From IMG/VR virus record IMGVR_UViG_3300042484_001867, positions 1-39,159 of that record: 39,159 nucleotides of DNA. The stretch is one strand, 5' to 3'. Both the position numbers and the translations under genes were made by a program. The notes below the pieces were generated by a model. The model was not told the origin of the DNA and did not search any database. It worked only from the letters and a program-made list of their open reading frames with translations. Within the stretch, counting starts at the first letter, position 1, and each line of letters starts with the position of its first letter. The DNA is from a virus. Positions 13,125 through 35,588 of this stretch are shown in pieces.

Positions 13125-13378
13125 TAGTTGACCCTTACCATTTTGTCGATTGCAGTCTGAAGGTCACGCACTAATCGCTTGGCCATTTCAGGCGTCATCA
13201 TGACTGTAGCTGCAAAGTTGTCTAGCTCCTTGAACGCAATCCCAAGATGCTCTCCATACTGCAAGGTAAAGAAGCCAACGGCATCCATTGGAGGAAGAAC
13301 CTCATCTTTGGGCAGGTTGAAAGCCTTGGCGACTACATCCCTGACCGGCTCCATTAGCTTCTCGCGCTCTTCACTCAT
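13124..13378 (-). CDS. Hypothetical protein in replication operon (84 aa)
   Basis: The product MSEEREKLMEP... is a mixed helical small protein with a central FFTLQYGEHLGIAFKELDNF segment and a helical end. It has no motif I can name. It is coupled by short overlaps to the gene on each side, which supports real translation. Confidence 0.6.
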   Translation of the reverse strand: MSEEREKLMEPVRDVVAKAFNLPKDEVLPPMDAVGFFTLQYGEHLGIAFKELDNFAATVMMTPEMAKRLVRDLQTAIDKMVRVN

Positions 13379-13614
13379 ACCTGATCCTTCAGCGCCTTAA
13401 TCTTAGCCGTATCAATCCGTATAACCAGCTCTCTCCCGAATCTCTCAACGCTAAGGTGCTCAAATATCTCAATGGCTATGTTTGCCATGAGCTTGTCGAT
13501 CTCTGCGCTTAGCTTGTCGATTGCTTGTCTACGAACATCGCTAGTAATGGAGTCAATCTTATGGTCCAAGACTGCCTTGATTGCACTACCGAATGATTCT
13601 ATCTGGTTGTTCAT
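13375..13614 (-). CDS. Helical hypothetical protein (79 aa)
   Basis: I chose ATG 13614 (MNNQIESFGS), because GGAGGAAG lies just upstream. A longer in-frame start at 13683 would add a cysteine-rich stretch that overlaps the end of the DUF551 gene and looks like frame shadow. The protein is predicted mostly helical (AIDKLSAEIDKLMANIAIEIFEHL), perhaps a coiled-coil oligomer. Function unknown. Confidence 0.55.
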   Translation of the reverse strand: MNNQIESFGSAIKAVLDHKIDSITSDVRRQAIDKLSAEIDKLMANIAIEIFEHLSVERFGRELVIRIDTAKIKALKDQV

Positions 13615-13901
13615 ACTTCCTCCTTCGGCGGCTGGGGTAGGGGCATCCAGTGGGTGACACCCGCACTGGGGACATCTGTCCACTCCATGCTAAACCATTC
13701 ATATCCAGGTTTGCGACATTCTAAATCGTAGAACCCGATGTTGTGGCCATACGACCTATGAAGAAACAGCACTCCCTTGCGACGCTCCGGCAACCTATCC
13801 TTCACCGAGATCCACTGAGGCGCTGCGGCCTGGTAGCCAGCGAGGAAGGCACTTGTACCCAGCGTGGAATTCATCGTTAGTGTGCGCCGACTCGTAGGCA
13901 T
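13611..13901 (-). CDS. DUF551-family protein (96 aa)
   Basis: The core WISVKDRLPE, a central strand (GHNIGFYDLE) and the end VTHWMPLPQPPKEEV define the DUF551 family, common in the early regions of tailed phages and prophages. The fold is small and beta-rich, of unknown function. Upstream of AFLAGYQAAAPQW the frame loses resemblance to the family, while an N-terminus of family type (MTNKTPEELAHEYA) is found in another frame from 13938, so the gene may be frameshifted near its start. Confidence 0.75.
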   Translation of the reverse strand: MPTSRRTLTMNSTLGTSAFLAGYQAAAPQWISVKDRLPERRKGVLFLHRSYGHNIGFYDLECRKPGYEWFSMEWTDVPSAGVTHWMPLPQPPKEEV

Positions 13902-13938
13902 ATTCGTGTGCTAATTCTTCAGGTGTTTTGTTTGTCAT
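13795..13938 (-). other. Overlapping ORF that may be the displaced N-terminus of the DUF551 gene (47 codons)
   Basis: From ATG 13938 the frame reads MTNKTPEELAHEYAYESAHT..., which resembles the N-termini usually fused to AFLAGYQAA-WISVKDRLPE proteins. It runs out of frame into CLPRWLPG and stops at 13795, while the family continuation is in the neighbouring frame. It may be a genuine frameshift, a sequencing indel, or an independent peptide. Confidence 0.35.
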
Positions 13939-13943
13939 ATCGA

Positions 13944-14684
13944 TTAAGCTACTAACTCCCTCCATGCTGCCTTAACCACTCCTGGTACTTGTCCATTTCC
14001 AAGGGCTTTAAGTCTGTTGCTCCTAGCGGCCACCCCATCAGCCACTCGACCCACGTTGGGTTCAGTCTCCCACCACCCGCCGCCTCCGCTATTGCTTCGG
14101 GGAGATTGCACCCCCCAATCCTGGCTCGAGCCGCTGCCGCTGCGTGAGGCTGAATCGACCCCTTGTAATCTGCCGCTCTTGGAGTGGGCCATAATCCACA
14201 GACGTTCCCTTTTATGCGGGGCTCCCATTCCTTGCGCTGATATACAAGCCCACTCCGCATCGTACCCGCTCTCGGCCAGGTCTTTAAGGATCGTCCCGAA
14301 GTAGCCATGCCGGCCGGTGAGGCCGGGGACGTTCTCCAAAAGACACCATTCAGGCTGCACTTTTCTAATGACATCAATGGTGGCTGGCCACATGTTTCGC
14401 TCGTCGGCTGCCCCTTTTCGTAGTCCTGCGAGAGAGAATGGCTGACAAGGGAATCCCGCTGTAACGACATCAACCAATCCTCGATACTTTGAGGCGTGGG
14501 ATATGGCGAATAAGCGGAGATCGGTGAACACCGGAGCAGGGTCAAAGGCTCCATCCCTAATCCTGGCGGCGATGACTTGCTGACAGTAGTCGTCGTATTC
14601 AACATATCCAACCGTTCTCCATCCTAACAACTTGGTGCCGTATACGCCGCCACCTGCTCCCGTAAACAAGGACAGCTCTCTCAT
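13944..14684 (-). CDS. dcm: DNA cytosine-5 methyltransferase (246 aa)
   Basis: The canonical order of C5-methylase motifs is present: I (SLFTGAGGG), IV with catalytic Cys at about 80 (GFPCQPFSLAG), VI (LLENVPGL), VIII (GAPHKRERLWIMA) and IX-X (RLKALGNGQVP). The region between VIII and IX is only about 50 residues of low complexity, so a conventional target-recognition domain is missing, as in several compact phage enzymes. I start at ATG 14684, which overlaps the upstream TGA, rather than the TTG at 14696. It probably methylates phage DNA against host restriction. Most of its length carries a second long frame (13952-14611). Confidence 0.88.
   Translation of the reverse strand: MRELSLFTGAGGGVYGTKLLGWRTVGYVEYDDYCQQVIAARIRDGAFDPAPVFTDLRLFAISHASKYRGLVDVVTAGFPCQPFSLAGLRKGAADERNMWPATIDVIRKVQPEWCLLENVPGLTGRHGYFGTILKDLAESGYDAEWACISAQGMGAPHKRERLWIMAHSKSGRLQGVDSASRSGSGSSQDWGVQSPRSNSGGGGWWETEPNVGRVADGVAARSNRLKALGNGQVPGVVKAAWRELVA
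13952..14611 (-). CDS. Overprinted +1-frame protein inside dcm, LNPxWVEWLMG family (up to 219 aa)
   Basis: Same strand as dcm, shifted by one base. The frame encodes TWPRAGTMRSGLVY, GLWPTPRAADYKG and the ending GRLNPTWVEWLMGWPLGATDL, KPLEMDKYQEWLRQHG. I recognise these blocks from phage proteins annotated as hypothetical or as methylase fragments and usually found beside dcm genes. Here they lie exactly over methylase motifs VI-X: EPRIKGNVCGLWPTP is the shifted reading of GAPHKRERLWIMAHS. The first in-frame start is TTG 14611; the true start may be internal (MSLQRDSL). No convincing ribosome site is seen. Either it is translated or it is a constraint shadow of dcm. Confidence 0.5.
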   Translation of the reverse strand: MDMLNTTTTVSKSSPPGLGMEPLTLLRCSPISAYSPYPTPQSIEDWLMSLQRDSLVSHSLSQDYEKGQPTSETCGQPPLMSLEKCSLNGVFWRTSPASPAGMATSGRSLKTWPRAGTMRSGLVYQRKEWEPRIKGNVCGLWPTPRAADYKGSIQPHAAAAARARIGGCNLPEAIAEAAGGGRLNPTWVEWLMGWPLGATDLKPLEMDKYQEWLRQHGGS

Positions 14685-14938
14685 AACTCCGGCCAATCCG
14701 CATAAAACATTACTCCCCCGTGGTCCCAGTCCAGCACCTCTACGGCTACTACGTTCGGGAGCGCGGCTATCTTCTTTGCAAGGTCGGCAGGGGTATCGTC
14801 CTCATTAGCTCTAGCCACTGATTCAATGTCAGTGAAGCGCCCTGGTGTGTGGTCGTAATCATCCGGCTCATCCCGCCATACCCTGATCGTGTATCGCGAG
14901 AGGCTTATCCGTATCACCGACTCAATCCATCCGTTCAT
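14681..14938 (-). CDS. Hypothetical protein upstream of dcm (85 aa)
   Basis: The product begins MNGWIESVIRISLSRYTIRV and ends in an acidic aromatic stretch (DHGGVMFYADWPEL). A mixed alpha/beta pattern is likely. Its TGA overlaps the dcm ATG, so the two are probably translated together. No family recognised. Confidence 0.6.
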   Translation of the reverse strand: MNGWIESVIRISLSRYTIRVWRDEPDDYDHTPGRFTDIESVARANEDDTPADLAKKIAALPNVVAVEVLDWDHGGVMFYADWPEL

Positions 14939-15008
14939 AGTCGCTCCATAAACAGCCTAGACAAAACCCAAGGAGCAACGCTCCCCAGCCAACAAAGACA
15001 CAAGTCAT
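14922..15008 (-). CDS. 28-residue membrane micropeptide
   Basis: The ATG at 15008 overlaps the stop of the upstream gene (ATGA), and the stop overlaps the next gene by 17 bp. The product is MTCVFVGWGALLLGFCLGCL followed by a polar tail (WSDYERMD), that is, one short hydrophobic helix with three cysteines. The coupling and clean hydrophobic design suggest a real micropeptide, though no independent ribosome site is strong. Confidence 0.45.
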   Translation of the reverse strand: MTCVFVGWGALLLGFCLGCLWSDYERMD

Positions 15009-15247
15009 ATAGAATCCCGAACTCTTCGTAATTCATTGAGGTAATTCTTCGCCCGATGTGCATCGGTAGGTTTCACACACTTGATAGCGAACAGTACGAA
15101 CTTGTGTTTGTGCTTGTACCAAAGCTCAACCCGTTGCTCGTAAGCATCTGCGCTCTCACGCTCACCTCGGTCCCTTGGTCCACGCTTCATCTGTTCAAGT
15201 GTGTACTCGATAGCAGATAGAATCCGTCCGTAATGTTCGCTCGTCAT
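15005..15247 (-). CDS. Basic hypothetical protein (80 aa)
   Basis: The product is rich in Arg, Lys, His and Glu (KRGPRDRGERE, WYKHKHKFVLF, AHRAKNYLNELRRVRD), predicted helical and possibly nucleic-acid binding. The neighbours are recombination genes. No motif specific enough to name. Confidence 0.6.
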   Translation of the reverse strand: MTSEHYGRILSAIEYTLEQMKRGPRDRGERESADAYEQRVELWYKHKHKFVLFAIKCVKPTDAHRAKNYLNELRRVRDSI

Positions 15248-15427
15248 TTACTTAACCCTCTTAATCTTGTCGTCGTTCTTAATCCCCTCAATCTTTGCCG
15301 AGAGGTTGTCCATGTCACGCAAGATACGAGTCAGGTCTTGGTGTCGTCGCCAATCTTTGACTGCATTAAGCATGTGGTAAGTGCCCCAGAAGCAAAGTGG
15401 GAAAGCGATCATTGTTTGCCAGTCCAT
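15248..15427 (-). CDS. Small protein with hydrophobic N-terminus and coiled coil (59 aa)
   Basis: ATG 15427 (MDWQTMIAFPLCFWGTYHML) is preceded by AAGGGA. A longer in-frame start at 15550 would add a basic leader that looks like upstream non-coding sequence. A single amphipathic or membrane helix is followed by DLTRILRDMDNLSAKIEGI, a coiled coil, and a basic end. It may be membrane-associated. Confidence 0.5.
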   Translation of the reverse strand: MDWQTMIAFPLCFWGTYHMLNAVKDWRRHQDLTRILRDMDNLSAKIEGIKNDDKIKRVK

Positions 15428-15567
15428 AAGTGTCCCTTCAAAAGAACCGCTGGTCTTACAAGTGACCTCAAAGGGGCGGTAAACTCCTCGTGTTAATGTG
15501 GTACTGCCAAAAAGTAGGGGTGATCTATCGACCTTCAAGGGTGCCCCCACACCCCGACCACTGGCGA

Positions 15568-15792
15568 CTAACTTCCAGCGGAGCGTTTCTCAAGCACTGC
15601 GTTCAAATCTTTAGTCGCGCTAGACTGAGGGCGGGTTAGTGCAATCGTTGACGCCATGACAGCCTTGCGAGCTGCCGCAAGAACGTCGCCGAACTTATCC
15701 CCCTCATCCACTACCATCGTGACTCCGATGGTTTCTGTTTCGTAATTCCCGAGATTAAACTTCCTCTCGTACACCACCTCTTTGAGCTTCAT
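15568..15792 (-). CDS. Conserved small phage protein, FNLGNYE type (74 aa)
   Basis: The product begins MKLKEVVYERKFNLGNYETETIGVTMVVDEG. Small proteins with an ERKFNLGNYE strand followed by a second beta strand are widespread in phages, often near SSB or RecE-type genes. Their role is not established. Here it sits immediately downstream of the SSB-like gene, in the same operon. Confidence 0.6.
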   Translation of the reverse strand: MKLKEVVYERKFNLGNYETETIGVTMVVDEGDKFGDVLAAARKAVMASTIALTRPQSSATKDLNAVLEKRSAGS

Positions 15793-15800
15793 GTCCCCTC

Positions 15801-16265
15801 CTAGAAAGGAATCTGGTCGTCAGAGAAAGCGAACGTCACATCCTCAGTCGGTTGAACTGGGGGAGGGGCCTTCTTCTCCTTCACTGGTACCGCTGATTGG
15901 ATGTTGTTGTAGCCGTTGCTCTGGGTGACAACGAGGTTCCACTCCTTGCCGACAAGCCCACGAACGAACGCCCACATCTTCTCGCTCGACCCTTGGATCT
16001 CAGGGGTGAAGGTGCTACCGCAGCACGCCTTGAGGTACTTCACGATCCAGCTAGTGTCAGCGAGTGACGGATTGAAGAACGCCGTGATCTCAGTCTCCTC
16101 AGATGGGATACCGTAGACGAAAAGGATCTTGGTCTTTTTCTCCTGCGTTTTCTTATCCGTTACCTGCACCGTCTTAACGTCAGTCAAGACACCGTGGTAA
16201 ATACCTGCGTCGATTACCTTGCGCTCCTTGCGAGAGCGGCTCACTCCATTAAAGGGATTGTCCAT
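15801..16265 (-). CDS. ssb: Single-stranded-DNA-binding protein-like (154 aa)
   Basis: I start at ATG 16265 (MDNPFNGVSRS), which has GGAGGAAA directly upstream; an earlier in-frame codon gives a non-family leader. Beta strands rich in basic and aromatic residues (KILFVYGIPSEETEITAFF, KEWNLVVTQSNGYNNIQS) suit an OB fold. The C-terminus is acidic and ends DVTFAFSDDQIPF, the signature SSB tail that docks partner proteins. It lies just after a RecE-like exonuclease and likely coats the single strands that enzyme makes. Confidence 0.75.
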   Translation of the reverse strand: MDNPFNGVSRSRKERKVIDAGIYHGVLTDVKTVQVTDKKTQEKKTKILFVYGIPSEETEITAFFNPSLADTSWIVKYLKACCGSTFTPEIQGSSEKMWAFVRGLVGKEWNLVVTQSNGYNNIQSAVPVKEKKAPPPVQPTEDVTFAFSDDQIPF

Positions 16266-17067
16266 AAGTTTCCTCCATCGTGTTAGTCGCATAGTCGGGT
16301 ATCGAAATGTCCTCGATACCTTGTGTATATCCAGGCCATGAGTCGGTGCGCTTGCACTCGGCATATAGTCGGAGCAGTCGGTCGTTCTCTTGTCTGGATA
16401 GCTGTATTGTTTTGTCGTCGAGGCGATATAAGGCAACGCAATATGGTCGGTCCTTTTCCACCGCTACGAACACAAAGTGTTTTGCGTCTTCGCCGTTAGC
16501 TCTTAACGCCTCTAGGTAGTAAGCCGCTTGCAAGTGATACCCGTAGGCGAATAGCTTGCGGGGGAACCCTGAAGGAGATGCGTCCTGCGTGGTCTTAACG
16601 TCGATAACGATTCCCAACTCTGGGTTGTATGCATCAACACGAGCCTTGCATTTGATTCCCGTCTCTTCGTGAGTCCAGTCGAGAGTCACCTCAGTCATGG
16701 CTCCATCAAGCAGGTAGTTTGCGTGTGGGTTGCTTCTCACGCTGGTCGCTACATCGAGCGCCATGTTGAAGTCATCCGGTTTGAGGATGGTCTTGCCGGG
16801 GTTCTGAGATACTAGCTCTGCGTACGCCTCGCGGCCCTTAGTAGTACGACGGTCGATCTCAGGGAGACACAAGAACTCATCGTTGAATTTGAACGCCTCT
16901 AGTATCGCCGTGTGGATAGCTCGACCAATTTTTAGGGCGTCGGTATCAGGGCGCGCGTAATCTAGTGCATGCTTAAACTTAAACGGCACCTTCATGAGCT
17001 TCAGCATTGAGCTGTTCATGCCCTCAAGGTTGCGGTAGTCCTCAAACGAAACATCTTTCCTTAGCAT
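16249..17067 (-). CDS. RecE-like exodeoxyribonuclease VIII (PD-(D/E)XK, 272 aa)
   Basis: Conserved blocks in order: MNSSMLKLM near the N-terminus, KIGRAIHTAIL with His about 52, CKARVDAY with Asp about 145, IVIDVKTTQDASPSGF with Asp 156 and Lys 158, and the helix YGYHLQAAYYLEAL. This matches the RecE/DUF3799 nuclease family, 5'-3' double-strand exonucleases used in single-strand-annealing recombination. The downstream SSB-like gene overlaps its end. No Rad52/RecT-type annealing protein is obvious in the window. Confidence 0.85.
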   Translation of the reverse strand: MLRKDVSFEDYRNLEGMNSSMLKLMKVPFKFKHALDYARPDTDALKIGRAIHTAILEAFKFNDEFLCLPEIDRRTTKGREAYAELVSQNPGKTILKPDDFNMALDVATSVRSNPHANYLLDGAMTEVTLDWTHEETGIKCKARVDAYNPELGIVIDVKTTQDASPSGFPRKLFAYGYHLQAAYYLEALRANGEDAKHFVFVAVEKDRPYCVALYRLDDKTIQLSRQENDRLLRLYAECKRTDSWPGYTQGIEDISIPDYATNTMEETYGQSL

Positions 17068-17477
17068 ATCTCACACCACGGACAGTTAGGCGTTTTCAAT
17101 TCGGTATCCTCAGGCGCATGAACCGGGCCACACGTCGCGCAAGTAACTAGCTTGGTGAAGCGGGGAGGGACGATGCTCTGTTCGCACATCAGCTTCTCAC
17201 CCAGCCGCTCAACCAACACCGCTCGCTGCTCATCGGGGATGTCTAGCTTCAGCTCCTCAACCTCAGCGGTGATAATGTTCCGGGCCATATCGGTAGCCAC
17301 CTCCCACGCCTCTGCGCGTCGTCGCTTCCCTGCATCAATCAACTTCTTCATGCTTGCGCCCTTGAACCCTTCGACCCGAGCCCGTAACCAGAGGCCATCC
17401 TCTGACTCTTTGAACTCACGCCACTCCTCAGCCGTCATCACCCCAGAGAGGTGGTTAAATACCTCTAGTGCATCCAT
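17061..17477 (-). CDS. Zinc-ribbon protein of recombination operon (138 aa)
   Basis: I start at ATG 17477 (MDALEVFNHL), with GGAGGAG 10 bp upstream; the longer frame to 17537 runs into the preceding gene. The first 100 residues are helical and charged. The C-terminus holds CATCGPVH and NCPWCEIC, a four-cysteine zinc ribbon. It lies immediately upstream of the RecE-like gene (7-bp overlap), so a DNA- or partner-binding accessory role is plausible. Confidence 0.65.
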   Translation of the reverse strand: MDALEVFNHLSGVMTAEEWREFKESEDGLWLRARVEGFKGASMKKLIDAGKRRRAEAWEVATDMARNIITAEVEELKLDIPDEQRAVLVERLGEKLMCEQSIVPPRFTKLVTCATCGPVHAPEDTELKTPNCPWCEIC

Positions 17478-17701
17478 TGAACTGGCTCCTCCTCGCGCTG
17501 AAGTCTCTTCTCTGACTGGTCCACCATGATCTCGCACTGGCGGCGGGTACCTACGAACACCACTACCCAGTCGAACATATCGTTAGGCTTGTGCCAGAAG
17601 CGTCGAGCGTTTGCGGTCACTGCACTTGCAAGCTCCTGAATATGGAAAGCCTTCTGGCTCTGTGAAAATTCAACTACCCAATCCTTTCTCTTAATCTTCA
17701 T
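17465..17701 (-). CDS. Hypothetical protein (78 aa)
   Basis: GGAGGT precedes ATG 17701. The product has a basic N-terminus (MKIKRKDWVVEF) and a central hydrophobic strand (FDWVVVFVGTRRQCEIMV). Its end overlaps the next start by 13 bp and its start overlaps the ATPase stop. No family recognised; operon context suggests DNA metabolism. Confidence 0.6.
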   Translation of the reverse strand: MKIKRKDWVVEFSQSQKAFHIQELASAVTANARRFWHKPNDMFDWVVVFVGTRRQCEIMVDQSEKRLQREEEPVQWMH

Positions 17702-18602
17702 GACCTACCTCCCACTTGTCCCAGGCGTACTGCACTTCTCGGTAACTGAGTCCCAACTGTTTCGCGACATCGCGCCGTGTCAGCCCCTCGTCCTTCATCT
17801 GTTGAATGGTCCGGTGCTGCGTATCTTCCAGCGGTCGCCAGCTCCAACGACTCACACCGTCGTCACCTTCCAGGTACTCAACGTGCAGGGGTAGGGCGTC
17901 GCACTTCTTAACGTCTCGGGTCTTGCGGTAGTGAAGCTCGAACTCTGTCCCTCTCACTGGTCGCATGACGGCAGGGGCGCGAAGCTCAATGCTGGTGTCC
18001 AGCCAGTTCTCTTTGATAGAGGTCCCGAGCTGTAAGCCTGACTTGCCAGTGTGGTGGACCATGATGACCGTTCGGCCCGTGTCCCGGAGGGCAAAGAGCC
18101 AGGGGATTATGCGCTCCCACTGACGCACATCATTGTCGCGACCATCTATGGGGAAGATTGAGGAGAGCAGGTTATCAATGACGATGACCTCCGCATCCTT
18201 AATCTGTTGGTTGTACTTCTTCTGGTCCTTAGGGTCAGAGATGTTCCAAAGTCTCCCCCCGCAGTGGTCCTTTGAGAGCACCCGGAAGTAGTCGCCGCGA
18301 GGAGAGAAGGGGGCCTCAGCCTGAATCATCTTCAGCCGCTTCTTCATCGTACTAATGCCCAGCTCGCCGTCTATGTAGAGCACCTTCGATGGGCGGTGGC
18401 AGGTATGGTTGAGGAACTTCCCACCCGTTGAGATAGTCCACACCAGTTTCATAACCTTGTGGGTCTTGCCTAACCCTGTCGGGGCGACAACCATCACTAG
18501 GTTGTGGGTACAGATAGCCGGTCCCCATAGCTGGTTGGGTTCAACCGTCTCGGTGTCGAGTATCTGGTTCAGGTTCTGAGATAGGTCTGGGAGCTGGTTC
18601 AT
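17691..18602 (-). CDS. RecA-fold replication ATPase/helicase (RepA/AAA_25-like, 303 aa)
   Basis: Walker A APTGLGKT lies at 40-47, Walker B VIVIDNLL at 139-146, and a sensor segment VIMVHHTGKSG at about 179-189, as in hexameric RepA/GP4-like helicases. The C-terminus carries a helix-turn-helix (LTRRDVAKQLGLSYREVQYAW). It is likely the replicative helicase or helicase loader. Its ATG overlaps the upstream stop (ATGA), tying it to the gene at 18599. Confidence 0.8.
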   Translation of the reverse strand: MNQLPDLSQNLNQILDTETVEPNQLWGPAICTHNLVMVVAPTGLGKTHKVMKLVWTISTGGKFLNHTCHRPSKVLYIDGELGISTMKKRLKMIQAEAPFSPRGDYFRVLSKDHCGGRLWNISDPKDQKKYNQQIKDAEVIVIDNLLSSIFPIDGRDNDVRQWERIIPWLFALRDTGRTVIMVHHTGKSGLQLGTSIKENWLDTSIELRAPAVMRPVRGTEFELHYRKTRDVKKCDALPLHVEYLEGDDGVSRWSWRPLEDTQHRTIQQMKDEGLTRRDVAKQLGLSYREVQYAWDKWEVGHED

Positions 18603-18925
18603 CGACGAGCCCCCTGCTGGTTGGCCCGGTCAATAACCCAGGGCTTATAGTACCCAGCGCCATGCTGCGGATGCTCGGCGAACTCATAGCCGTCCGACAC
18701 CTTCATCCGGTGCCAGTTCATGAGCGTCTTGTAGTGACACTTGTATTTCTTCCAGCGGCTCGGCCACTGTTCGGCGTAGTCCTCAGCCCTCTCGCAGAGA
18801 TGAAAGGCACACGCCTCACCTAGCTTCTCAAGGAACTGAGCCCACTGTTGGGCGGTCATTCGGATAGCGCCCGGCTCCTCAGGGAAGGGAACGCTTATCT
18901 TCTCTAGGGTATCTTTCTCGGTCAT
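18599..18925 (-). CDS. Replication-associated protein upstream of ATPase (108 aa)
   Basis: First gene of the leftward operon, with AAGGA eight bases before ATG 18925. The C-terminal half (WKKYKCHYKTLMNWHRMKV) resembles the ends of phage replication-initiation proteins, which contain a conserved KY..HY.T..NW pattern. An acidic start and helical Cys/Glu segment precede it. It is probably a helicase partner or primosome component. The family assignment rests on a short motif. Confidence 0.6.
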   Translation of the reverse strand: MTEKDTLEKISVPFPEEPGAIRMTAQQWAQFLEKLGEACAFHLCERAEDYAEQWPSRWKKYKCHYKTLMNWHRMKVSDGYEFAEHPQHGAGYYKPWVIDRANQQGARR

Positions 18926-18959
18926 TTGCTAGTCCTTTGTAGGGAGCTAGCAGTTCCTA

Positions 18960-18981
18960 ATTATAGGACGGTAAGTGACCG
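18960..18981 (-). promoter_or_regulatory. Promoter for replication operon: perfect -10 with adjacent inverted repeat
   Basis: The minus strand reads TATAAT at 18965-18960, about 35 bp before the first start codon. Immediately upstream of it is the inverted repeat CGGT-CACTT-ACCG (18981-18969). No good -35 hexamer lies at 16-18 bp. This suggests an activated promoter whose activator or repressor binds the inverted repeat. Confidence 0.5.
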
Positions 18982-19000
18982 AAACCTGGGATATTAATCC

Positions 19001-19035
19001 AAAAATGTCCCGATAAGTAAAGCTATCGCTGGGAC
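19001..19035 (-). terminator. Intrinsic terminator downstream of integrase
   Basis: On the minus strand GTCCC (19035-19031) and GGGAC (19011-19007) pair, with inner GAT/ATC, and the hairpin is followed by ATTTTTGG. It lies between the end of the integrase gene and the promoter of the replication operon, so it separates the two units. The rest of 18936-19203 shows short hairpins (CCCC-AATTAA-GGGG near 19090) but no gene; an attP site is expected nearby but cannot be identified. Confidence 0.6.
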
Positions 19036-19203
19036 GCTGGACGAATACTGGTATTTGCGGTCGCTGCTTGTCCGAAAATTATTTCCACCCCAATTAAGGG
19101 GGAAGAAACTGACTGCTAGCTACACGTTAAAACAGATACAGCCTTAACGAGGATGACCTTATCAGATCTTACGATTCGCACAACCCATTATTTTGCTATG
19201 GGC

Positions 19204-20217
19204 CTAGTCGTATGAAAGTTTTTTAGATGGAGATTCTTCAATCTCAAATCGCCGCCGATCGTAGCGTTCCACCATGGCAACACTGGCGTGGCGTGATAGC
19301 TCCTGCACCTCGCGGTGATTCATTCCCTGCTTGAGTAGCTGGGTGATAGCTGTCACACGGGCGCAGTGAGGGGAGTAGTCAGGGTTTAGCTTGAAGCGAG
19401 CAAGGTATTCTTTGAATAGACGGTAGACGAACTTCTCTCCCATCGGTTCCTCTCTTCGATGAAGGTAACGAACGAACAGGAGATCCCGATCCCCCTTACC
19501 CTCGTGGATGCGCCGCTCTTTGAACGCTAGTATCTCCTCGGCCACCCAGTCAGGTAGCGCCACCTTCTGTATGTTCTGGCTCTTGGTCTTGCGGAGTCTC
19601 AGGTAGGTGCTTCCCTTGTTCGTGTTGATGACGTCCGATAACGTTACATCGACTAACTCAGAACGACGGAGCGCGGCACCGAACATGAGGTGAAAGATGG
19701 CCCGGTCTCTGTAGTGTTCAGGGTCGAGAGGGGAGAAGGTCAGAAACTTCTTTACCTCGTGCGGCTCCATCCCCTCGTTGCGTCGCCTCTCCCCGCTTTT
19801 GAATCGCTTCATCTCCAGGCATACAGCGTGGAAAGGGTTACTCTCCACTAGCCCGTGAGCGATGAGCGCATCGTAAGAAGCCTTCAGCACCCCCGCCTTG
19901 TGCTTAACTGTCGCCATGCTGACACACCCGTCGGGGCTGGCATCGCTCGCTCTCCCTTGCTGGGCTGGCCGCTGTCGGCAATCGTTGATGAACGCTTGAG
20001 CATCCTTGTGGCTGGCCTTCTTCCAGAGCTTCCCGCTTGCGGTCTTGGTGAGGGATTGCCCTAAGAAAAGTGACCACTCCTCAGCGATACGGAGGTACAC
20101 GCGCCTTGTATTTTCAGGCCTTATCTCTAGCCAAAGATTCAGCGCGATTAGAACATCGCTCGCAGACTCAACGACTTCAGCTTCTTGCGGTGCGCGCAGG
20201 TGGATTATCTTGGCCAT
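19204..20217 (-). CDS. int: Tyrosine recombinase, phage integrase (337 aa)
   Basis: I start at ATG 20217 (MAKIIHLRAP); an upstream in-frame TTG has no better site. An N-terminal SAM-like DNA-binding part (residues 20-130) is followed by the catalytic domain with Arg in GAALRRSEL (about 184), His-x-x-Arg in SPHCARVTA (284/287), His in LSRHAS (310) and nucleophile Tyr in VERYDRR (about 319). The full R-H-R-H-Y set predicts an active enzyme. It shows the phage can integrate. It is transcribed leftward and ends about 170 bp before a terminator. Confidence 0.9.
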   Translation of the reverse strand: MAKIIHLRAPQEAEVVESASDVLIALNLWLEIRPENTRRVYLRIAEEWSLFLGQSLTKTASGKLWKKASHKDAQAFINDCRQRPAQQGRASDASPDGCVSMATVKHKAGVLKASYDALIAHGLVESNPFHAVCLEMKRFKSGERRRNEGMEPHEVKKFLTFSPLDPEHYRDRAIFHLMFGAALRRSELVDVTLSDVINTNKGSTYLRLRKTKSQNIQKVALPDWVAEEILAFKERRIHEGKGDRDLLFVRYLHRREEPMGEKFVYRLFKEYLARFKLNPDYSPHCARVTAITQLLKQGMNHREVQELSRHASVAMVERYDRRRFEIEESPSKKLSYD

Positions 20218-20296
20218 AAATATTGCCCTATATACAGCCAAGGCGTAACATTATGGTTACACCTTAGGGTGTCCTTTCGATTGCTAGTCGGTAGGT

Positions 20297-23202: not shown

Positions 23203-23347
23203 GTTGTCTCCGTTGTCGGTGCTAGTCAGTGATAGTCAACATTCATTGCCTATGATTCGCAGTATTCGGTCAAAGATGCATGATAGTCAACCGGCTTTTA
23301 CGTCAATATCGGTTTACGTTGCGCGAGTTATGACGTAAGCTAGAGTG
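23203..23347. promoter_or_regulatory. Divergent control region with operator-like repeats
   Basis: It lies between the leftward early operon and the rightward HTH gene. It contains two direct copies of TGATAGTCAAC (23230-23240, 23281-23291); three TTACGT-type units, two direct (TTACGTCA 23298-23305, TTACGTTG 23314-23321) and one inverted (TGACGTAA 23331-23338), spaced about 16 bp; and an 18-bp sequence (23261-23278) repeated at 25698. A leftward promoter TTGACT-18 bp-AATACT is formed by the second TGATAGTCAA copy and the 18-mer. Confidence 0.6.
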
Positions 23348-24273: not shown

Positions 24274-24330
24274 CTTTGTCACTCATCCTCTCTAGTTAAT
24301 TAAGACCCATCCGTGGTTGCGCTCTATTTT

Positions 24331-24807
24331 CTAAGGGCGCTTCTTCACCCCTCTCACCCACACCCCAGGCTCATGTGGCTCGCCCAGTTCCTCCCTCAGT
24401 CGCTTCACCGCAGTGTTTACCTTCCACCCCACCCATTTCCCTCGGCGCGTTTTGTTAGGAACACCGCGAGCGTTAAACATCTGGGCGATGGCCTTGAAGT
24501 GTATCCCCATGTCATGCAGCGCCTTAGCGACGTATTGCCAGTATCTCTCTTGCGGGTTGTCCACGATGCGCTTGTCGGCATCTGCCATTTTGCCATAGGG
24601 GAGTTGTCCTCCGACGCGATAGCCCTGGGCTCGTCTAGCGTGGAGCTTAGCTTTGATTAAGTCTCTGACTGCCCAGTAGCCATTCTCCCCGTGGGCCTTA
24701 GGGTGGCAGTAGTCGCAGAGTGGAACGGTGCGTGTGCCGCCAAGGGATTGGGGAATGACGTGGTGGTTATGGGTCGCGGGTTTCTTGCACTCAAAGCATC
24801 TCGCCAT
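24331..24807 (-). CDS. HNH endonuclease with recombinase-like DNA-binding half (158 aa)
   Basis: The N-terminus is an HNH/zinc motif: CFEC at 4-7, THNHHVIPQSLGG with His 15/16, then LCDYC and KAHG. The C-terminal half (VAKALHDMGIHFKAIAQMFN, ARGVPN, WVGWKVNTAVKRL) resembles the domain of serine recombinases that reads DNA next to the catalytic part. HNH proteins near phage terminases can be required for packaging cleavage or can be free-standing homing enzymes. It is oriented against the neighbouring coding genes and lies downstream of the structured RNA on the same strand. Confidence 0.75.
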   Translation of the reverse strand: MARCFECKKPATHNHHVIPQSLGGTRTVPLCDYCHPKAHGENGYWAVRDLIKAKLHARRAQGYRVGGQLPYGKMADADKRIVDNPQERYWQYVAKALHDMGIHFKAIAQMFNARGVPNKTRRGKWVGWKVNTAVKRLREELGEPHEPGVWVRGVKKRP

Positions 24808-24885
24808 GAGGAGAGAGTTTACAGTGGGTGAGGGGAATGGCGGTAAGGGAATCGAGTCTTTTTATCGAGCCAGTGTTTTAGCTGA

Positions 24886-25032
24886 TCAGATTACAGGGGG
24901 TATAGGGAATAAATAGTGCGACACCTGTTGTTTGCATCTACGCCACTCTCGGCCAATGGCAATCGCGAATTTGTCTGGATGTCGCTTGCACCACTTCCTG
25001 AATTTGATTCGCTTCCGTCTTGGACTCGTCAT
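24886..25032 (-). CDS. Possible small basic protein (48 aa)
   Basis: From ATG 25032 the frame reads MTSPRRKRIKFRKWCKRHPD, then KFAIAIGREWRRCKQQ and a hydrophobic end. Strongly basic, with paired Trp and Cys, it could bind nucleic acid. It lies between the structured RNA and the HNH gene on the same strand. No clear ribosome site, so coding is uncertain. Confidence 0.3.
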   Translation of the reverse strand: MTSPRRKRIKFRKWCKRHPDKFAIAIGREWRRCKQQVSHYLFPIPPVI

Positions 25033-25075
25033 TGAGGTACCGTTTGATCTGATCAGATTCCAGCGACTCTCTATG

Positions 25076-25140
25076 CCTACTCTCTGCTCTTCTTCTACTT
25101 CTAGCTACTTCTCTACTCTACTCTAGCTAGATCTCTACCA
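25076..25140 (-). repeat. Polypurine tract (minus strand) of TAGAG/AAGTAG units
   Basis: The plus strand is almost pure CT with repeated CTCTA, CTACTTCT and CTAGCTA units; the minus strand is correspondingly AG-rich. It separates the structured RNA/hairpin region from the small basic ORF. No coding potential is visible. Confidence 0.5.
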
Positions 25141-25184
25141 GACGCATCATCTCTTGGGCTCTAGGGGTGTCCATCTAGGAAAGT

Positions 25185-25236
25185 GCATAGTTTGGGATCA
25201 CCGTTCTCAGCGTGGAGAACAGTGAGCAAACTATGC
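25185..25236. other. Long imperfect hairpin
   Basis: GCATAGTTTG (25185-25194) pairs with CAAACTATGC (25227-25236), and inside it TCAC-c-GTTCTC pairs with GAGAAC-a-GTGA around an AGCGTG loop. About 20 bp of stem is formed in total. It lies just past the T-tract of the minus-strand RNA terminator and has no T-tract of its own on either strand. Confidence 0.6.
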
Positions 25237-25238
25237 AG

Positions 25239-25275
25239 AAAAAACGCTCCATCTGAGGTTTCTACGATGTCGAGC
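25239..25275 (-). terminator. Intrinsic terminator of structured RNA
   Basis: On the minus strand GCTC-ga-CATC (25275-25266) pairs with GATG-GAGC (25253-25246), then G and six T (25244-25239). The stem has a two-base bulge and a 12-nt loop, so strength is moderate. Confidence 0.5.
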
Positions 25276-25690
25276 CTTCTTGCGAAGGTAGGTCGGTTAG
25301 AGTCCTTACCCGTTTAGTCTCTGTCTGGTCGCCCTAGTCCTAGCCTCTGGGAGAACTAATGTTTCAAGTCTCTGGCCGCTTCTAAGCCTTTCGCCTTAGG
25401 AGCTGTCTACCCGTTACCGGATAGACTCAGGGGGGTTCACTAACTCAAGTATCCTGCGCTACATCGCCAACACAGGTACTTCGTGGGTCGCCAAAAAAGT
25501 TAAAGCGTTGCCATGAGTGGTTCGTCACCAGTCACCCTGGACCTTACGGTATCCAGGCACTCGCTGTAGTAGTTGGGAGCTAACCTCATTGACTACCCGC
25601 CATGAGGATCAAAGCTAAGGCGATTCTACTTCAGCACTAAAATCCCCGTCCACTAAAAACATCACTTTCTTTGCCGGTACTTTTGCCGGT
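25239..25690 (-). ncRNA. Large structured non-coding RNA (about 450 nt), GOLLD/ROOL-like in character
   Basis: No convincing ORF, but four stable hairpins on the minus strand all close with GNRA tetraloops: GTAA (25536-25557), GTAA on a 9-bp stem (25405-25426), GAAA (25382-25399) and GCAA (25275-25288). On the plus strand the loops would be unremarkable, which fixes the strand. A nested long-range helix joins GGTAG-7 nt-GGTTAG (25597-25580) with CTAACC-3 nt-CTACC (25300-25287), closing a 311-nt domain. A T-tract terminator ends it and an 18-bp promoter-proximal element precedes it. Large ornate RNAs of unknown role (GOLLD, ROOL) are known in phages; class membership is not shown. The 5' end is estimated. 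Confidence 0.65.
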
Positions 25691-25697
25691 GCTTGGT

Positions 25698-25715
25698 AGT
25701 ATTCGGTCAAAGATG
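25698..25715 (-). promoter_or_regulatory. Second copy of 18-bp element; promoter-proximal site for structured RNA
   Basis: AGTATTCGGTCAAAGATG is identical to 23261-23278. On the minus strand it supplies the -10-like AATACT used in both places. The -35 here is weak (TTCGGT at 18 bp), unlike TTGACT at the early operon. On the plus strand its last three bases are the start codon of the gene at 25713. Just downstream on the minus side two TTTGCCGGT copies lie at 25670 and 25682. Confidence 0.5.
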
Positions 25716-26042
25716 AAATACACCGAAGGGCAAGTGTCGATAGAGCAGATGTTTCCGATTCTTTCTGGGGAGTGGGACAGGAAGCAGCCGGAGTTAAAGC
25801 TCTGGGCGGTTTGTTTGTCTCAGGCGATAGCGGGTGCCGTTGGGCTGATACGGTGCAACGACCTCAAATACTGGTACCGGGACGACCGCTATTGGTTATT
25901 CCGCGACAAGAGGAACTGCCCTGGTAGCTGCCAGTGGATCTGCGATGTGCTGGAGATTGACAGGAAGGAGCTACTTACCTTCGTATGGAAGAATAGGCAT
26001 GTGTTGAGGAAGAGTCCTTACCGCCTTCGGAGTCTTAATTGA
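25713..26042 (+). CDS. Conserved protein preceding large terminase (109 aa)
   Basis: I start at ATG 25713 (MKYTEGQVSIEQMF); the in-frame extension to 25671 lies in the regulatory repeats. The protein is Trp-rich, with CPGSCQWICDVLEIDRKELL and WKNRHVLRKSPYRLR, suggesting a helical DNA-binding fold. The stop overlaps the TTG start of the large terminase. Candidate roles are terminase partner or small terminase; the HTH protein at 23592 is the rival for that role. Confidence 0.6.
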   Translation: MKYTEGQVSIEQMFPILSGEWDRKQPELKLWAVCLSQAIAGAVGLIRCNDLKYWYRDDRYWLFRDKRNCPGSCQWICDVLEIDRKELLTFVWKNRHVLRKSPYRLRSLN

Positions 26043-27664
26043 GCGACGAGCAGAAACCTGACCTTGAGATAGACGGCATCAAGTGGACCCGGATACCTGG
26101 TGTGAAGTATGGCCACGACTTCTGCCGCTATCTGGCTGACGCTCAAAAGGTCGGGATGACCAATGAGGCGGCGTTAGCTGAGATGTTCAAGGCTAACCTT
26201 TGGTTCCTAGTCTACTTCGGGATGCGCGTTTCTATCGCCAATAACCCCTGGTGGATTGAGCGGTGTAGAGAGATTCAGAACGGACCACGCTCCCATACCC
26301 TTGACCTCTGGGCGAGAGAACATGGAAAGAGCAGCCTTATTACCACCGCTAAGACCATTCAGGACATTCTGATTAACCCTGAGGAGCGAGTGGGGATCTT
26401 CTCATTCTCCCGTCCTGCGGCCTTGGCCTTCCTCCGGTCCATCAAGTCTATCTTTGAGAACTCAGCTCTCCTGAAGGCTTGCTTCCCCAACATCCTCTAC
26501 GCTGACCCCCGGAGTGAAGCTGAGAAGTGGTCGGAGACTGACGGGCTTATCGTGAAGCGCAAGGGCTTCTATAAAGAGGCGACGGTGGAGGCTTGGGGGT
26601 TGGTTGAGGGTAGCCCGGTCGGTAAGCACTTTAGTCTTCGAGTCTATGACGACATTGAGGTGCCCGACTTGGTGAACAGCCCTGAGATGATGGAAAAGCT
26701 AAAAGACGCTTTCGACATGTCTCAGAACCTCGGAACCATCGACGGTGCCCACCGGGTTATCGGGACGACGTATCACCATGAGGGATTGCTCAATACCCTT
26801 CGGCACAAGAAGACCAACGACGGTCGGCTTATCTATACCTCTCGTGTTCGACCTGCGACGGTAGACGGCACACCTAACGGGGTGAGTGCTTACTTGCCTG
26901 AGGAGCGGTTAGCGGAGCTAAGGGTGAACCGGCAGATGTTTTACTCTCAGCAGCTATTGGACCCAACGCCTCAGGGTACTCAGAAACTAGACCCATCCCT
27001 CTTGGTTGAGTGCTCACCGGCTGACCTGCCTAAGAACCTGTTCAAGTTCATGACGGTTGACCCTGCGGGAGAGCGCAAGAGCGACAAGCGCCAGGGGGAT
27101 AGCTGGGCCTTGATAGTCTGCGGGATTGAGCCGTTTCGAGATGACGTTGGAGCGAGCAGGGTATTCATCCTCGACATGATGGTTGAGCCGATGACTGAGG
27201 CTGAAGCCTTGGACAATGTTGTGCGTATGTATCTCCGTAACGGGATGATTCGGCAGCTTGGCATTGAGAAGGTCGGTATTAGTACCGCTGAAATCCATAT
27301 TGCGAAGCACTTACATGCCCGTGGCAAAGCCATTAGTGTTGAAAATGGAGGGTTGGTAGTTCTTAGACCCGCCGGAAGAAATAAGAAGACGCGCATTGAG
27401 GCCGCATTACAGTGGCCTTTGTTACACGGAAAGCTGCATTTGTGCACGTCAGTTCCATCAGCCTATCGAGAAAGACTCAAGTTGGAGATGCAACGTCATC
27501 CGTTTTTTCATGATGATTCGCTGGATGCGTTGGCCTACCAGTATGATCTCTTCCGTGATTTTCGATTCGGCAAGGTTGTTACCCCAGAGCAGCAGAGCGA
27601 GTGGGATAAAGCATTTGAGGCTCAGTCTCGCAAAGGCAAACCTAACTCCTGGCTATACGTATGA
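26039..27664 (+). CDS. terL: Terminase large subunit (541 aa)
   Basis: A TTG start overlapping the previous TGA, with GGAG six bases upstream. The ATPase domain has a Walker A-like WAREHGKSSL (91-100) and Walker B RVYDDIE with the acid pair about 203-204. The nuclease domain has MTVDPAG (Asp about 341), LGIEKVG and HDDSLDALAYQ (about 491-500). It pumps DNA into the prohead through the portal encoded next and cuts it. The stop overlaps the portal ATG (ATGA). Confidence 0.88.
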   Translation: MSDEQKPDLEIDGIKWTRIPGVKYGHDFCRYLADAQKVGMTNEAALAEMFKANLWFLVYFGMRVSIANNPWWIERCREIQNGPRSHTLDLWAREHGKSSLITTAKTIQDILINPEERVGIFSFSRPAALAFLRSIKSIFENSALLKACFPNILYADPRSEAEKWSETDGLIVKRKGFYKEATVEAWGLVEGSPVGKHFSLRVYDDIEVPDLVNSPEMMEKLKDAFDMSQNLGTIDGAHRVIGTTYHHEGLLNTLRHKKTNDGRLIYTSRVRPATVDGTPNGVSAYLPEERLAELRVNRQMFYSQQLLDPTPQGTQKLDPSLLVECSPADLPKNLFKFMTVDPAGERKSDKRQGDSWALIVCGIEPFRDDVGASRVFILDMMVEPMTEAEALDNVVRMYLRNGMIRQLGIEKVGISTAEIHIAKHLHARGKAISVENGGLVVLRPAGRNKKTRIEAALQWPLLHGKLHLCTSVPSAYRERLKLEMQRHPFFHDDSLDALAYQYDLFRDFRFGKVVTPEQQSEWDKAFEAQSRKGKPNSWLYV

Positions 27665-32514: not shown

Positions 32515-33192
32515 ATGGCTGCATCTGACTACGACTTCAACGTAACCCGTAACGAGATCATCGAACGGGCATATCGCATTATCGGTAAGGGCTCTATGGA
32601 GGAGCCGGTATCTGCTCCGATGTATAGCCAAGCTATCGTCGCCCTTAACTCCATGATTAAGAGCTGGCAGAGTAAGCACGTCTTTCTCTGGACCTTGAAG
32701 GAGTTCTCTCAGACCCTCACGGCGGGACAGGCTAGCTACTCGCTTGCTTCTCTCGACCCAGCCATCTACGCCATTGACCGGGCTTACATCCGTATCGACA
32801 ACATCGACACCCCGGTTGACGTGGCAAGCTATCGCCAGTACCTCGATGTTCCTGACAAGACGAGCACCGGGGACCCAACGATTGTGGCTCTCGATGGTCA
32901 GCTTACCCCAACGATGTATGTATGGCCGGTCCCTCAACAGACTAGGACCTTGCGTTATACGGGCATCGTAAAGCTCAAGGACTTTGACACGGCGGCTGGC
33001 AACGCTGACTTCCCGGTGCGCTACCTTGAGGCTATTACATTCGGCCTTGCCCACAAGCTATCGTTTGAGTACGGCCTTCCAGTCCAGTTCCAGCGGGAGC
33101 TTGAGCGTCAATACCAGGCAGAGTTCGGAGAGGCCAAGAGCGGCGAGCGAGAGCGCGCTGAGTACGAATTTTGCGATGGAGCGTGTAAGTAA
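32515..33192 (+). CDS. P22 gp4-like head-completion/tail adaptor protein (225 aa)
   Basis: The first segment (RNEIIERAYRIIGKG, ALNSMIKSWQSKHVFLWTL) is the helical core, followed by beta strands (GQLTPTMYVWPVPQQTRTL, LRYTGIVKLKDF) and a final helix (LEAITFGLAHKLSFEYG). This is the pattern of P22 gp4-type adaptors, which extend the portal after packaging. The stop overlaps the next start (TAATG). Confidence 0.7.
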   Translation: MAASDYDFNVTRNEIIERAYRIIGKGSMEEPVSAPMYSQAIVALNSMIKSWQSKHVFLWTLKEFSQTLTAGQASYSLASLDPAIYAIDRAYIRIDNIDTPVDVASYRQYLDVPDKTSTGDPTIVALDGQLTPTMYVWPVPQQTRTLRYTGIVKLKDFDTAAGNADFPVRYLEAITFGLAHKLSFEYGLPVQFQRELERQYQAEFGEAKSGERERAEYEFCDGACK

Positions 33193-35588
33193 TGGCAACC
33201 GCGGTACAGGTAGAGTCGATCTGGAATGGCCTCACGGATAACAGCGGAGAGCCTTTAGCATCCGGCAAGGTTTATACCTACTACGCAGGTACCTCGACCC
33301 CTGTTGCGCTCTTTACGGCTAGCGACAAAAGCACCTCAGCGACTAACCCTCTCATCCTCGATGGTAACGGCAAGGCTCAAGTCTGGGCTGATGGCCGCTA
33401 TAAGTTCGTGGTTAAGAGCGCCGCTGATGTAACTCTCTACACCCTAGACAACTTGCTCTATGGATTCGATGACTCGACGGTTCTCTGGGGCGGTCAGTCT
33501 ACTGGGTCAGCGAATACTCAGACGGTGAGCGTTCCTGCTACTGTGGGCGTGTATTCTAACGGGCAGCGCGTTAGCTTTATCGCGGGATACACCAACACTG
33601 GCCCTGTTACCTTGCAGCTTAACTCCCTTTCCGCTGTCAGCGTGGTCAAGGGGCCTAACGCCGTGTCCCTTCAGGCTGGTGACATTGTAGCAGGGCAGCT
33701 CGTTGATTGCGTCTATGAGGCGTACAGCGGCACTGGGCGTTTCCGCTTAGAGAACTATCCGACCCTTGCCGATGTTCAGCGTTCGCGGTTCCAGGTCGCA
33801 ACCAACGTATCGGCCAACTCCGCTACTGTTACCGCTGACCTTACTCCTGCTCTTACTTCGTATGAGGCTGGGCTTGCAGTTCGCTTAAAGATAGTCACGA
33901 CCTCCTCTGGTCCCGTTACCCTTAACCTTAACGGCCTTGGGGCTAAGACGGTTCAGTTCAATAACGCAGCCCTCGTCGCTGGTGAGCTTCAGGCTAATAA
34001 CTGGCACGAGTTTGTTTATGACGGGACTCAGTTCCAGCTTTTGAATCCTTACGAGGTAGCTATCCCTCGATGGGCTGGCACTACTACAGGAACCTCAACG
34101 GCGTATGCAATTAGTCCGTCTCCCGCGATTACAGCTTATGCGGCTGGTCAACGATTCTCGTTTATTGCTCATGCAGCTAACGGGGCGGCCCCGACTCTTG
34201 CGGTTAGTGGCCTTGCTGCTACGGCTATTCAGTACGAAGGCACTGCTCTTGTAAGCGGGGAGATAGCCTTGAGTGGTGAGCATGAGGTCATGTACGACGG
34301 TACGGCCTTTCAGCTTCTTAATCCTTCTACTACAGCTAGCTCGGGCCTTGTTCCGGTGCGGGTATCGCAGATTCAGGACAGCGCCGTTATTTATGGTGGC
34401 ACTTCGACCGGCTCAGCTAACGCTCAAGCGATTAGCCTCTCTCCCGACATAACTGCTTATACGGTTGGACAGCGATTCATCTTCAAGGCTGGTTATACTA
34501 ACACTGGCGCGACTACTCTTGCGGTCGATAGCATCACTCCTGCCGTAGCCATTCAGCGATTTGGCGTAGCTCTTGTCGGTGGAGAGATCCAGCTTAATGA
34601 CATGGTGGAGGTTGTCTATAATGGGACGGCCTTCCAGCTTGAGAACTCTACCCCTGCGCCGTTGTTTGTGGACCGGACTAATAATCGCGTAGGAATTGGC
34701 AAAACTTCTATAGCTGAAGCTTTGGATATATCCGGAAATGTTAAAATAAGCGCCCCGCTAACAGACGCAACGCAGAAAATAGGTAGACTTATTGGCGCAC
34801 CGTATACCAATGCTAATGGTGATTGGTTGGCCGCTGACATTCGTGGTTCATCGGGATCTAATGAGCTTGTATTTGGTGGTGGTAGTGCAGTTTATAAATG
34901 TGCCACAGGAATATCATTTATAACAGCAGCCAATACCACGACCACAAGTGGCACTGAACGAGCGCGGATACTCTCCTCAGGCGAGGTTTTAATTGGCACA
35001 GCGACATCTGCAAATGCTGTTTTTAGGTTGCAGATTGGAGATCAGACTGGGCAAAAAGGCGTAGTCATTCAAGGTGGAAGTGCAAGCACAAGCGATGGAA
35101 GCGTCTTAAATTTTAATAATGGCACCGCAGTCAGTGGGCAAATCGGGAACTATTCCGCCTTACAAGGTGGAGCCTACGATGGACGATTCACTATCAAAAA
35201 TAGCGGATCGGCTTTCTGTCTTTTAGGGCTTACCGCAGCGGTTGGTACTCACTTCATGAAGTGGAACAACGTATCTGGTGCGTGGACTTTCGATACTTCA
35301 TCAGCTCGATACAAAGACAACATAGCTAATAGCTCGTATGGCTTGGCGGAAGTTATTGCGATGCGTCCAGTTACTTTTACATACAAAGCTGAGCCAGATC
35401 GCCACGACGTCGGCTTTATCGCTGAGGAGATGCTTGAGGTCGTTCCCGAGGTTGTTGCAAAGAATTTAGAAGGGGAGCCCGATGCAATCAGCTACGATCG
35501 TCTCACCTCGGTCCTTTGCAAAGCCATTCAAGAACTCAACGCCAAAGTCGAATCCCTTGAATCCCGCATAGCAGCACTAGAGGCATAG
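33192..35588 (+). CDS. Tail fibre/spike with C-terminal S74 self-cleaving chaperone domain (798 aa)
   Basis: The N-terminal 90 residues (SGKVYTYYAGTSTPVALFT, WADGRYKFVV) form a virion-binding head. Four beta repeats of about 85-95 residues follow (each with a GxSTGSAN-like start, a YxxGQR strand and a YDGTAFQLLNP end). A distinct distal section (about 500-690) precedes the S74 intramolecular chaperone (SSARYKDNIANS, HDVGFIAEEMLEVVPEVV) and a terminal coiled coil (IQELNAKVESLESRIAALEA). The Ser about 703 and following Lys are the auto-cleavage residues of the family. The trimer would recognise the host; the tip is released after folding. The distal section is more AT-rich than its surroundings. 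Confidence 0.82.
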   Translation: MATAVQVESIWNGLTDNSGEPLASGKVYTYYAGTSTPVALFTASDKSTSATNPLILDGNGKAQVWADGRYKFVVKSAADVTLYTLDNLLYGFDDSTVLWGGQSTGSANTQTVSVPATVGVYSNGQRVSFIAGYTNTGPVTLQLNSLSAVSVVKGPNAVSLQAGDIVAGQLVDCVYEAYSGTGRFRLENYPTLADVQRSRFQVATNVSANSATVTADLTPALTSYEAGLAVRLKIVTTSSGPVTLNLNGLGAKTVQFNNAALVAGELQANNWHEFVYDGTQFQLLNPYEVAIPRWAGTTTGTSTAYAISPSPAITAYAAGQRFSFIAHAANGAAPTLAVSGLAATAIQYEGTALVSGEIALSGEHEVMYDGTAFQLLNPSTTASSGLVPVRVSQIQDSAVIYGGTSTGSANAQAISLSPDITAYTVGQRFIFKAGYTNTGATTLAVDSITPAVAIQRFGVALVGGEIQLNDMVEVVYNGTAFQLENSTPAPLFVDRTNNRVGIGKTSIAEALDISGNVKISAPLTDATQKIGRLIGAPYTNANGDWLAADIRGSSGSNELVFGGGSAVYKCATGISFITAANTTTTSGTERARILSSGEVLIGTATSANAVFRLQIGDQTGQKGVVIQGGSASTSDGSVLNFNNGTAVSGQIGNYSALQGGAYDGRFTIKNSGSAFCLLGLTAAVGTHFMKWNNVSGAWTFDTSSARYKDNIANSSYGLAEVIAMRPVTFTYKAEPDRHDVGFIAEEMLEVVPEVVAKNLEGEPDAISYDRLTSVLCKAIQELNAKVESLESRIAALEA

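Follow-up and report, generated by a model that had tools for sequence, protein, structure and literature searches.

The window, the whole stretch of DNA analysed here, comprises the 39,159 bases of one IMG/VR virus record, from an uncultured phage. Comparison with related contigs indicates that it carries a real, conserved structured RNA, designated type A, on the minus strand from about 25617 down to 25174, sited between a minus-strand HNH gene (24331-24807) and plus-strand terminase genes (from 25713) (Table 1). The terminase large subunit was recognized by family match; the small ORF in front of it matched no family. Analysis of the HNH protein revealed weak HNH_5/HNH matches and a weak C-terminal match of serine-recombinase type (PF07508, E 0.064). 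No ORF of at least 60 aa was found within 25174-25617, in agreement with a preliminary description of this DNA, which had stated that no protein is encoded. Elsewhere, the window holds a temperate-type gene set at 12795-20241 on the minus strand (a RusA-like resolvase, a C5 DNA methylase, an exonuclease VIII-like protein, an AAA ATPase and a tyrosine integrase), and, on the plus strand, a tail-type protein with a Peptidase_S74 intramolecular chaperone end (33192-35588) and a 1653-aa ORF with no convincing domain match (5753-10714).

Table 1. Features of the RNA slot and its surroundings. Positions are those of the window unless a contig is named.
Feature	Position	Strand	Remarks
HNH protein, 158 aa	24331-24807	-	3' of the RNA, same strand
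Stretch replaced by the type B block in the nearest relative, L004	24897-25636		alignment gap; type B at L004 903-1309
Type A structured noncoding RNA	25174-25617	-	about 444 nt, best-estimate limits; conserved block in nine distinct sequences
Helix P11	25175-25343	-	CUAGGA 25343-25338 with UCCUAG 25180-25175; pairs nearly invariant
Hairpin P14	25185-25236	-	beyond the supposed terminator; conserved and compensated in all relatives
Hairpin plus T6, formerly read as terminator	25239-25275	-	not conserved
Hairpin P13	25275-25288	-	GCAA loop 25283-25280; GNRA in 9/9 (GCAA, GCGA, GAAA)
Hairpin P10	25351-25372	-	around conserved UUGAAACA loop; stem sequence varies, hairpin kept in most
Hairpin P9	25382-25399	-	GAAA loop 25392-25389; GNRA or GNRA-like loop in relatives
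Hairpin P8	25406-25425	-	GUAA loop 25417-25414; UUAG(G/U)U loop instead in six relatives
Hairpin P7	25447-25481	-	13 pairs; both-side changes in six pairs
Hairpin P5	25513-25535	-	all pairs kept; U-A/A-U and U-A/C-G exchanges
Hairpin P4	25536-25557	-	GUAA loop 25547-25544, invariant in 9/9; stem covaries
Helix P2	25584-25607	-	CCUCAU/AUGAGG, inside P1; six positions, each paired in 9/9 and each with two or three types of pair
Promoter-like element	25623-25652	-	-35 TGGACG 25652-25647, 18-nt spacer, -10 TAGAAT 25628-25623
Small ORF in terminase small subunit position	25713-26042	+	assigned by position only; divergent from the RNA
Terminase large subunit	26039-27664	+	PHROG 38, E 8.6e-41
Type B RNA, about 400 nt	L004 903-1309, L007 3191-3600, L009 926-1243, L011 3130-3447	-	same slot as type A
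Type C noncoding block, several hundred nt	L036/L012 1-720, equivalent places in L013 and L014	minus (fold)	before the terminase gene
Three tRNA genes (Met, Ile, Ser)	L037 2284-2598, L039 3527-3841	-	same slot, more distant relatives

Limits, strand and relatives of the type A RNA

The preliminary description had placed the RNA at 25239-25690. A structured RNA was indeed found there, but both limits required correction. The promoter-like element was present as reported, and a -10-like hexamer was kept at the equivalent place in relatives while the flanking sequence diverged. Because this hexamer maintains its distance to helix P1 despite the differing surroundings, the most likely start of the RNA is near 25617; the limit given earlier for this end, 25690, falls upstream of the promoter. 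At the other end, the transcript had been thought to stop at a terminator (stem 25275-25246, T6 at 25244-25239). This reading was abandoned, since only about half of the relatives can form the stem, the T6 occurs only in the three closest sequences, and the conserved RNA continues past it, via hairpin P14 and the UCCUAG strand of P11, to approximately 25174. This position, the end of the conserved block, was taken as the 3' limit. A consensus scan of 24300-26100 detected no minus-strand terminator. Between the corrected limits, the RNA reached a lower minimum free energy than shuffled sequences (z -3.61, 0/100 shuffles as good), whereas the fold within the former limits was only modestly better than shuffles (z -1.72). 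Strand was assigned from the aligned relatives: read as the minus strand, 80 G-U cells were counted versus 13 A-C cells, and the GNRA loops make sense only in this direction; the RNA strand is therefore minus.

Two further observations concern the flanks. A 33-bp element occurs at 23246-23278 and again at 25683-25715 with 85% identity (TTGCC..TG.TT.G.AGTATTCGGTCAAAGATG); each copy ends in a plus-strand ATG, and the element is possibly a shared promoter/start element. Beyond the 3' end of the RNA, positions 25060-25130 are of low complexity and rich in CTCTACT, hence in purines when read on the RNA strand; several relatives have similar sequence.

Relatives were IMG/VR contigs, gathered by terminase, HNH and motif searches. 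Type A was identified in nine distinct sequences, all from one phage clade and 72-100% identical (the window, L005, L006, L008, L010, L021, L024, L034 and L045); L022 is practically the same as L021 and was not counted separately. The RNA always stood before terminase genes, including in homologues found by motif scan alone. A DNA search of 50,697 cultured phages gave no match to type A or to the type B RNA described below; by TerL and capsid, the cultured relatives are distant (best approximately 30% and 32.5% identity, respectively). Two type A models, R1 and R2, were used to test other sequences. A single hit in the genome-contig scan, L026 (a Clostridium MAG), shared only the 18-nt search word and was discarded as chance, as were 24 new stretches from a looser motif scan, none of which was convincing against the RNA models. 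Weak plus-strand hits of R2 proved to be hairpin P14 read backwards.

Secondary structure and covariation

Covariation was scored on a plain MAFFT alignment of the nine sequences that had not been fitted to any structure; P8 was left out of the formal counts because its loop varies in size between sequences and aligns poorly. In the 5' domain (25617-25446), 97.2% of cells were paired and changes on both sides were observed in 21 of 48 pairs, compared with a mean of 9 in shuffles (0/500 reached 21). When the partner was slid by 1-3 columns, 1-3 double-change pairs were left. The 3' domain showed 93.7% of cells paired and 8 double-change pairs, versus 0-1 in slid controls. We regard covariation as the decisive comparative evidence for an RNA structure. 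Had the helices been broken by ordinary mutations in the relatives, the preliminary description would have counted this against an RNA; the main helices were intact. Its central proposal, that the minus strand specifies a large structured RNA rich in GNRA loops, was upheld by the nine distinct homologues, the covariation, the conserved promoter and the G-U/A-C bias, and its suggestion of a new class of about 450 nt agrees with the homologues and with the double-change pairs in both domains. The comparative data thus support the assignment of type A to such a class.

The individual helices are listed in Table 1. P1 pairs 25616-25613 with 25581-25578 and encloses P2, whose loop GUAGU could form a pseudoknot with ACUAC at 25573-25569; this potential pairing is invariant. 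All four GNRA hairpins reported earlier were present on the minus strand, in P4, P8, P9 and P13, and the P13 stem varied in sequence and length while its GNRA loop was retained in all nine sequences. Of a helix said to close a 311-nt domain, the outer half (CUAC/GUAG) was broken in relatives; the inner half (CGAG/CUCG) pairs in 8-9 of the nine and hardly varies, so it is unproven. P11 may close the 3' domain, although the evidence is suggestive only. A scan revealed no loop-loop covariation pointing to kissing contacts or oligomers, and no covarying extra helices outside the annotated stems.

Unrelated RNAs in the same slot

On the HNH side and on the terminase side, the contig L004 aligns with the window (24301-24896 and from 25637 onward, respectively), but not between. 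L004 is the nearest phage by terminase, with 92% TerL protein identity, yet its slot holds an unrelated RNA of approximately 400 nt, type B, which was also found in three other contigs. Type B had double changes in 25 of 124 pairs compared with 2-6 in slid controls (three sequences only). Its single-sequence fold was no better than shuffles (z -0.58), and the case for type B therefore rests on covariation among three sequences. No Rfam match was obtained for it. Types A, B and a further block, C, were not merged into one family, as B and C match neither type A model.

The TerL tree placed the window (type A) as sister to L004 (type B) with support of 95/97, and grouped L045 (A) with L009 and L011 (B) with support of 99/95. 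These placements imply at least two switches between A and B. A promoter similar to that of type A lies 5' of the type B RNA in L009, and the upstream flanks of L045 and L009 are 86% alike over approximately 94 nt, as far as the -10 region, beyond which the two diverge. By this alignment, the promoter-bearing upstream flank is common to types A and B. The RNAs were also more alike than their neighbours. The window and L005 are identical at 442 of 443 RNA positions, compared with 85.5% identity for terL DNA and 78.9% for HNH DNA; L004 and L007 share 90.6% of the type B RNA versus 71.2% of terL DNA. Greater likeness of the RNA than of the adjoining terL indicates exchange of the RNA as a cassette. 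Strong constraint alone is insufficient to account for the near-identity with L005, because the window and L006 are only 89% identical in the RNA; recent transfer or conversion appears the simpler reading.

Other contents of the slot were identified in further relatives. On the minus strand, the type C block gave a much more stable fold than its shuffles (z -5.4, 20 shuffles; one variant only), and in two more distant relatives the slot contains three tRNA genes; the region around these looks further tRNA-like. A 33-bp direct repeat at 24864-24896 and 25031-25063 contains the palindrome CTGATCAG, and sites resembling it border the slot in relatives of both type A and type B. Tentatively, we suggest that one promoter slot before the terminase genes of a phage clade may be dedicated to the swapping of large folded RNAs unrelated to one another; these would be interchangeable for one task, probably as RNA-only assemblies or counter-defence RNAs, and would spread between phages as cassettes. 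The exchange was observed for A and B and is likely for C, with tRNA genes in distant kin.

Function, alternatives and comparison with known phage RNAs

Secondary structure, strand, promoter-like element, lack of a coding frame, lack of a known family and exchange of the whole body with an unrelated RNA can all be read from the aligned sequences. On this basis, type A is probably a compactly folded noncoding RNA gene of approximately 440 nt, with its own promoter, which represents a new family among the large ornate phage RNAs and acts in trans. Transcription would proceed leftward from this promoter in the divergent gap before the terminase genes, and the product would be a stable, trans-acting RNA machine or scaffold. 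Docking of its GNRA loops into helices would produce a single tertiary fold, like that of GOLLD and ROOL, and the RNA may be homo-oligomeric. It would serve phage growth, and other folded RNAs in the same slot could replace it. An RNA scaffold or oligomer is the mechanism we favour by analogy; the trans role and an RNA-only assembly are likewise proposed from likeness to known RNAs.

The main alternative is that type A is the structured 5' leader of the HNH mRNA and controls that gene in cis, as an attenuator, antiterminator or translation control. Every type A contig has an HNH gene downstream of the RNA on the same strand, a relative lies downstream in three of the four type B contigs, and in the window no terminator is seen between the RNA and the HNH gene. 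However, the intervening gap is poorly conserved (approximately 130 to 560 nt), no HNH gene was detectable near type B in L007 or near the noncoding block of L012-L014, and close HNH genes follow A or B alike, so that a leader would be swapped without its gene. We consider a leader unlikely. The HNH gene could instead form a homing or mobile module with the RNA, as a ribozyme intron or an RNA-guided nuclease, the RNA being part of the mobility machinery. The proximity of an HNH gene to a GNRA-rich RNA and the exchange of the locus between phages fit this explanation, but there was no HEARO match and no interrupted gene, and the 158-aa protein comprises an HNH part and a weak recombinase-like part with no RuvC or RRXRR hit. 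In the comparison of the window with L005, RNA at 99.8% versus HNH DNA at 78.9% identity shows that RNA and HNH gene had not travelled as a pair in that case. Both a ribozyme intron and an RNA-guided nuclease are thus unlikely, and we give such a module the smallest chance of the explanations considered. Two specific candidates of this kind were rejected. A group I intron, considered for GAGACUAAACGGG, gave no Intron_gpI match in any record (control genomes were positive) and the position is intergenic; an IscB-type nuclease (RRXRR, RuvC, HNH) was dismissed because the adjoining protein has only weak HNH_5/HNH and Recombinase matches.

All homologues found lie immediately in front of the terminase genes, a position that would suit a packaging RNA acting with the adjacent terminase, like the phi29 pRNA, which binds the connector and is required for packaging. 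The 92%-identical TerL of L004 adjoins an unrelated RNA, which makes a specific contact between RNA and motor unlikely, and no pRNA family match was obtained; as closely related terminases accompany unrelated RNAs, packaging is the less likely role and has a very slim chance. Arms-race loci typically show non-homologous replacement, and the rapid replacement of one RNA by another, unrelated one behind a single promoter would be explained if type A were a counter-defence or phage-competition RNA (a decoy, an inhibitor of host defence, or an agent of superinfection exclusion). Direct support for this was not found, and homing driven by HNH, or drift, could also cause the exchange; we rate it as improbable, though a little less so than packaging. 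A trans-acting structured RNA remains our preferred interpretation of type A.

Comparison with known families was made using Rfam. Nothing reached the gathering score in the window, and only chance-level matches were seen at E<=10 in the region. The preliminary description had left room for membership of GOLLD or ROOL, and this did not hold: the GOLLD model (RF02032) gave no match at E<=10 in any record, whether window or whole relative contig, and ROOL (RF03087) gave none in the same set, with 14 control genomes also silent, so that the ROOL negative rests mainly on cmscan at E<=10. GOLLD and ROOL occur in phages, often near tRNA islands, and form RNA-only cages of unknown purpose; GOLLD forms a 14-mer cage, and ROOL a nanocage held by conserved kissing loops (PMC12286853). 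Like GOLLD, type A is a phage RNA that is large, ornate and noncoding, has no known purpose and occupies a type of locus where tRNA genes can also occur; with ROOL it shares large size, a multi-hairpin fold and the lack of a known purpose. It differs from GOLLD in length, many GOLLD RNAs exceeding 800 nt compared with about 440 here; ROOL env-120 has 659 nt (PMC12286853). No tRNA was found in the window or in the tested type A contigs. Vibriophage ICP1 produces an abundant ORF-less transcript of approximately 800 nt beside its lysis cluster (PMC7567579). Like type A, this phage transcript is large and noncoding and comes from a gap devoid of genes with no tRNAs nearby, although its host phage and its place differ, and the two are set side by side by description rather than by sequence. 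Omega RNAs of HEARO/IscB are also structured RNAs 5' of a same-strand HNH gene. In type A, however, the promoter abuts the first helix and no guide-like variable end was seen; the RNA region gave no HEARO match at E<=10. The packaging RNA of phi29, which is smaller than type A, is a phage RNA near packaging genes, but it has no family match here and the RNA type does not follow terminase kinship.

No earlier description of the type A RNA was found in the open-access papers searched. Its length of several hundred nucleotides, its many covarying helices, the lack of an ORF and its phage genome are those of a large ornate phage RNA. At approximately 440 nt type A is short, and covariation settles a large part of its secondary structure, which makes it well suited to structural study. 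Natural A/B swaps between close phages offer a ready comparison, in which what stays constant would tell the purpose of such RNAs. Beside GOLLD and ROOL, types A and B would add two further unrelated families, from one small-genome phage clade, at one locus and with a shared promoter flank. Taken together, these sequence comparisons place type A as a new family within the known kind of large ornate phage RNAs, with a promoter slot shared by unrelated RNAs as its added feature.
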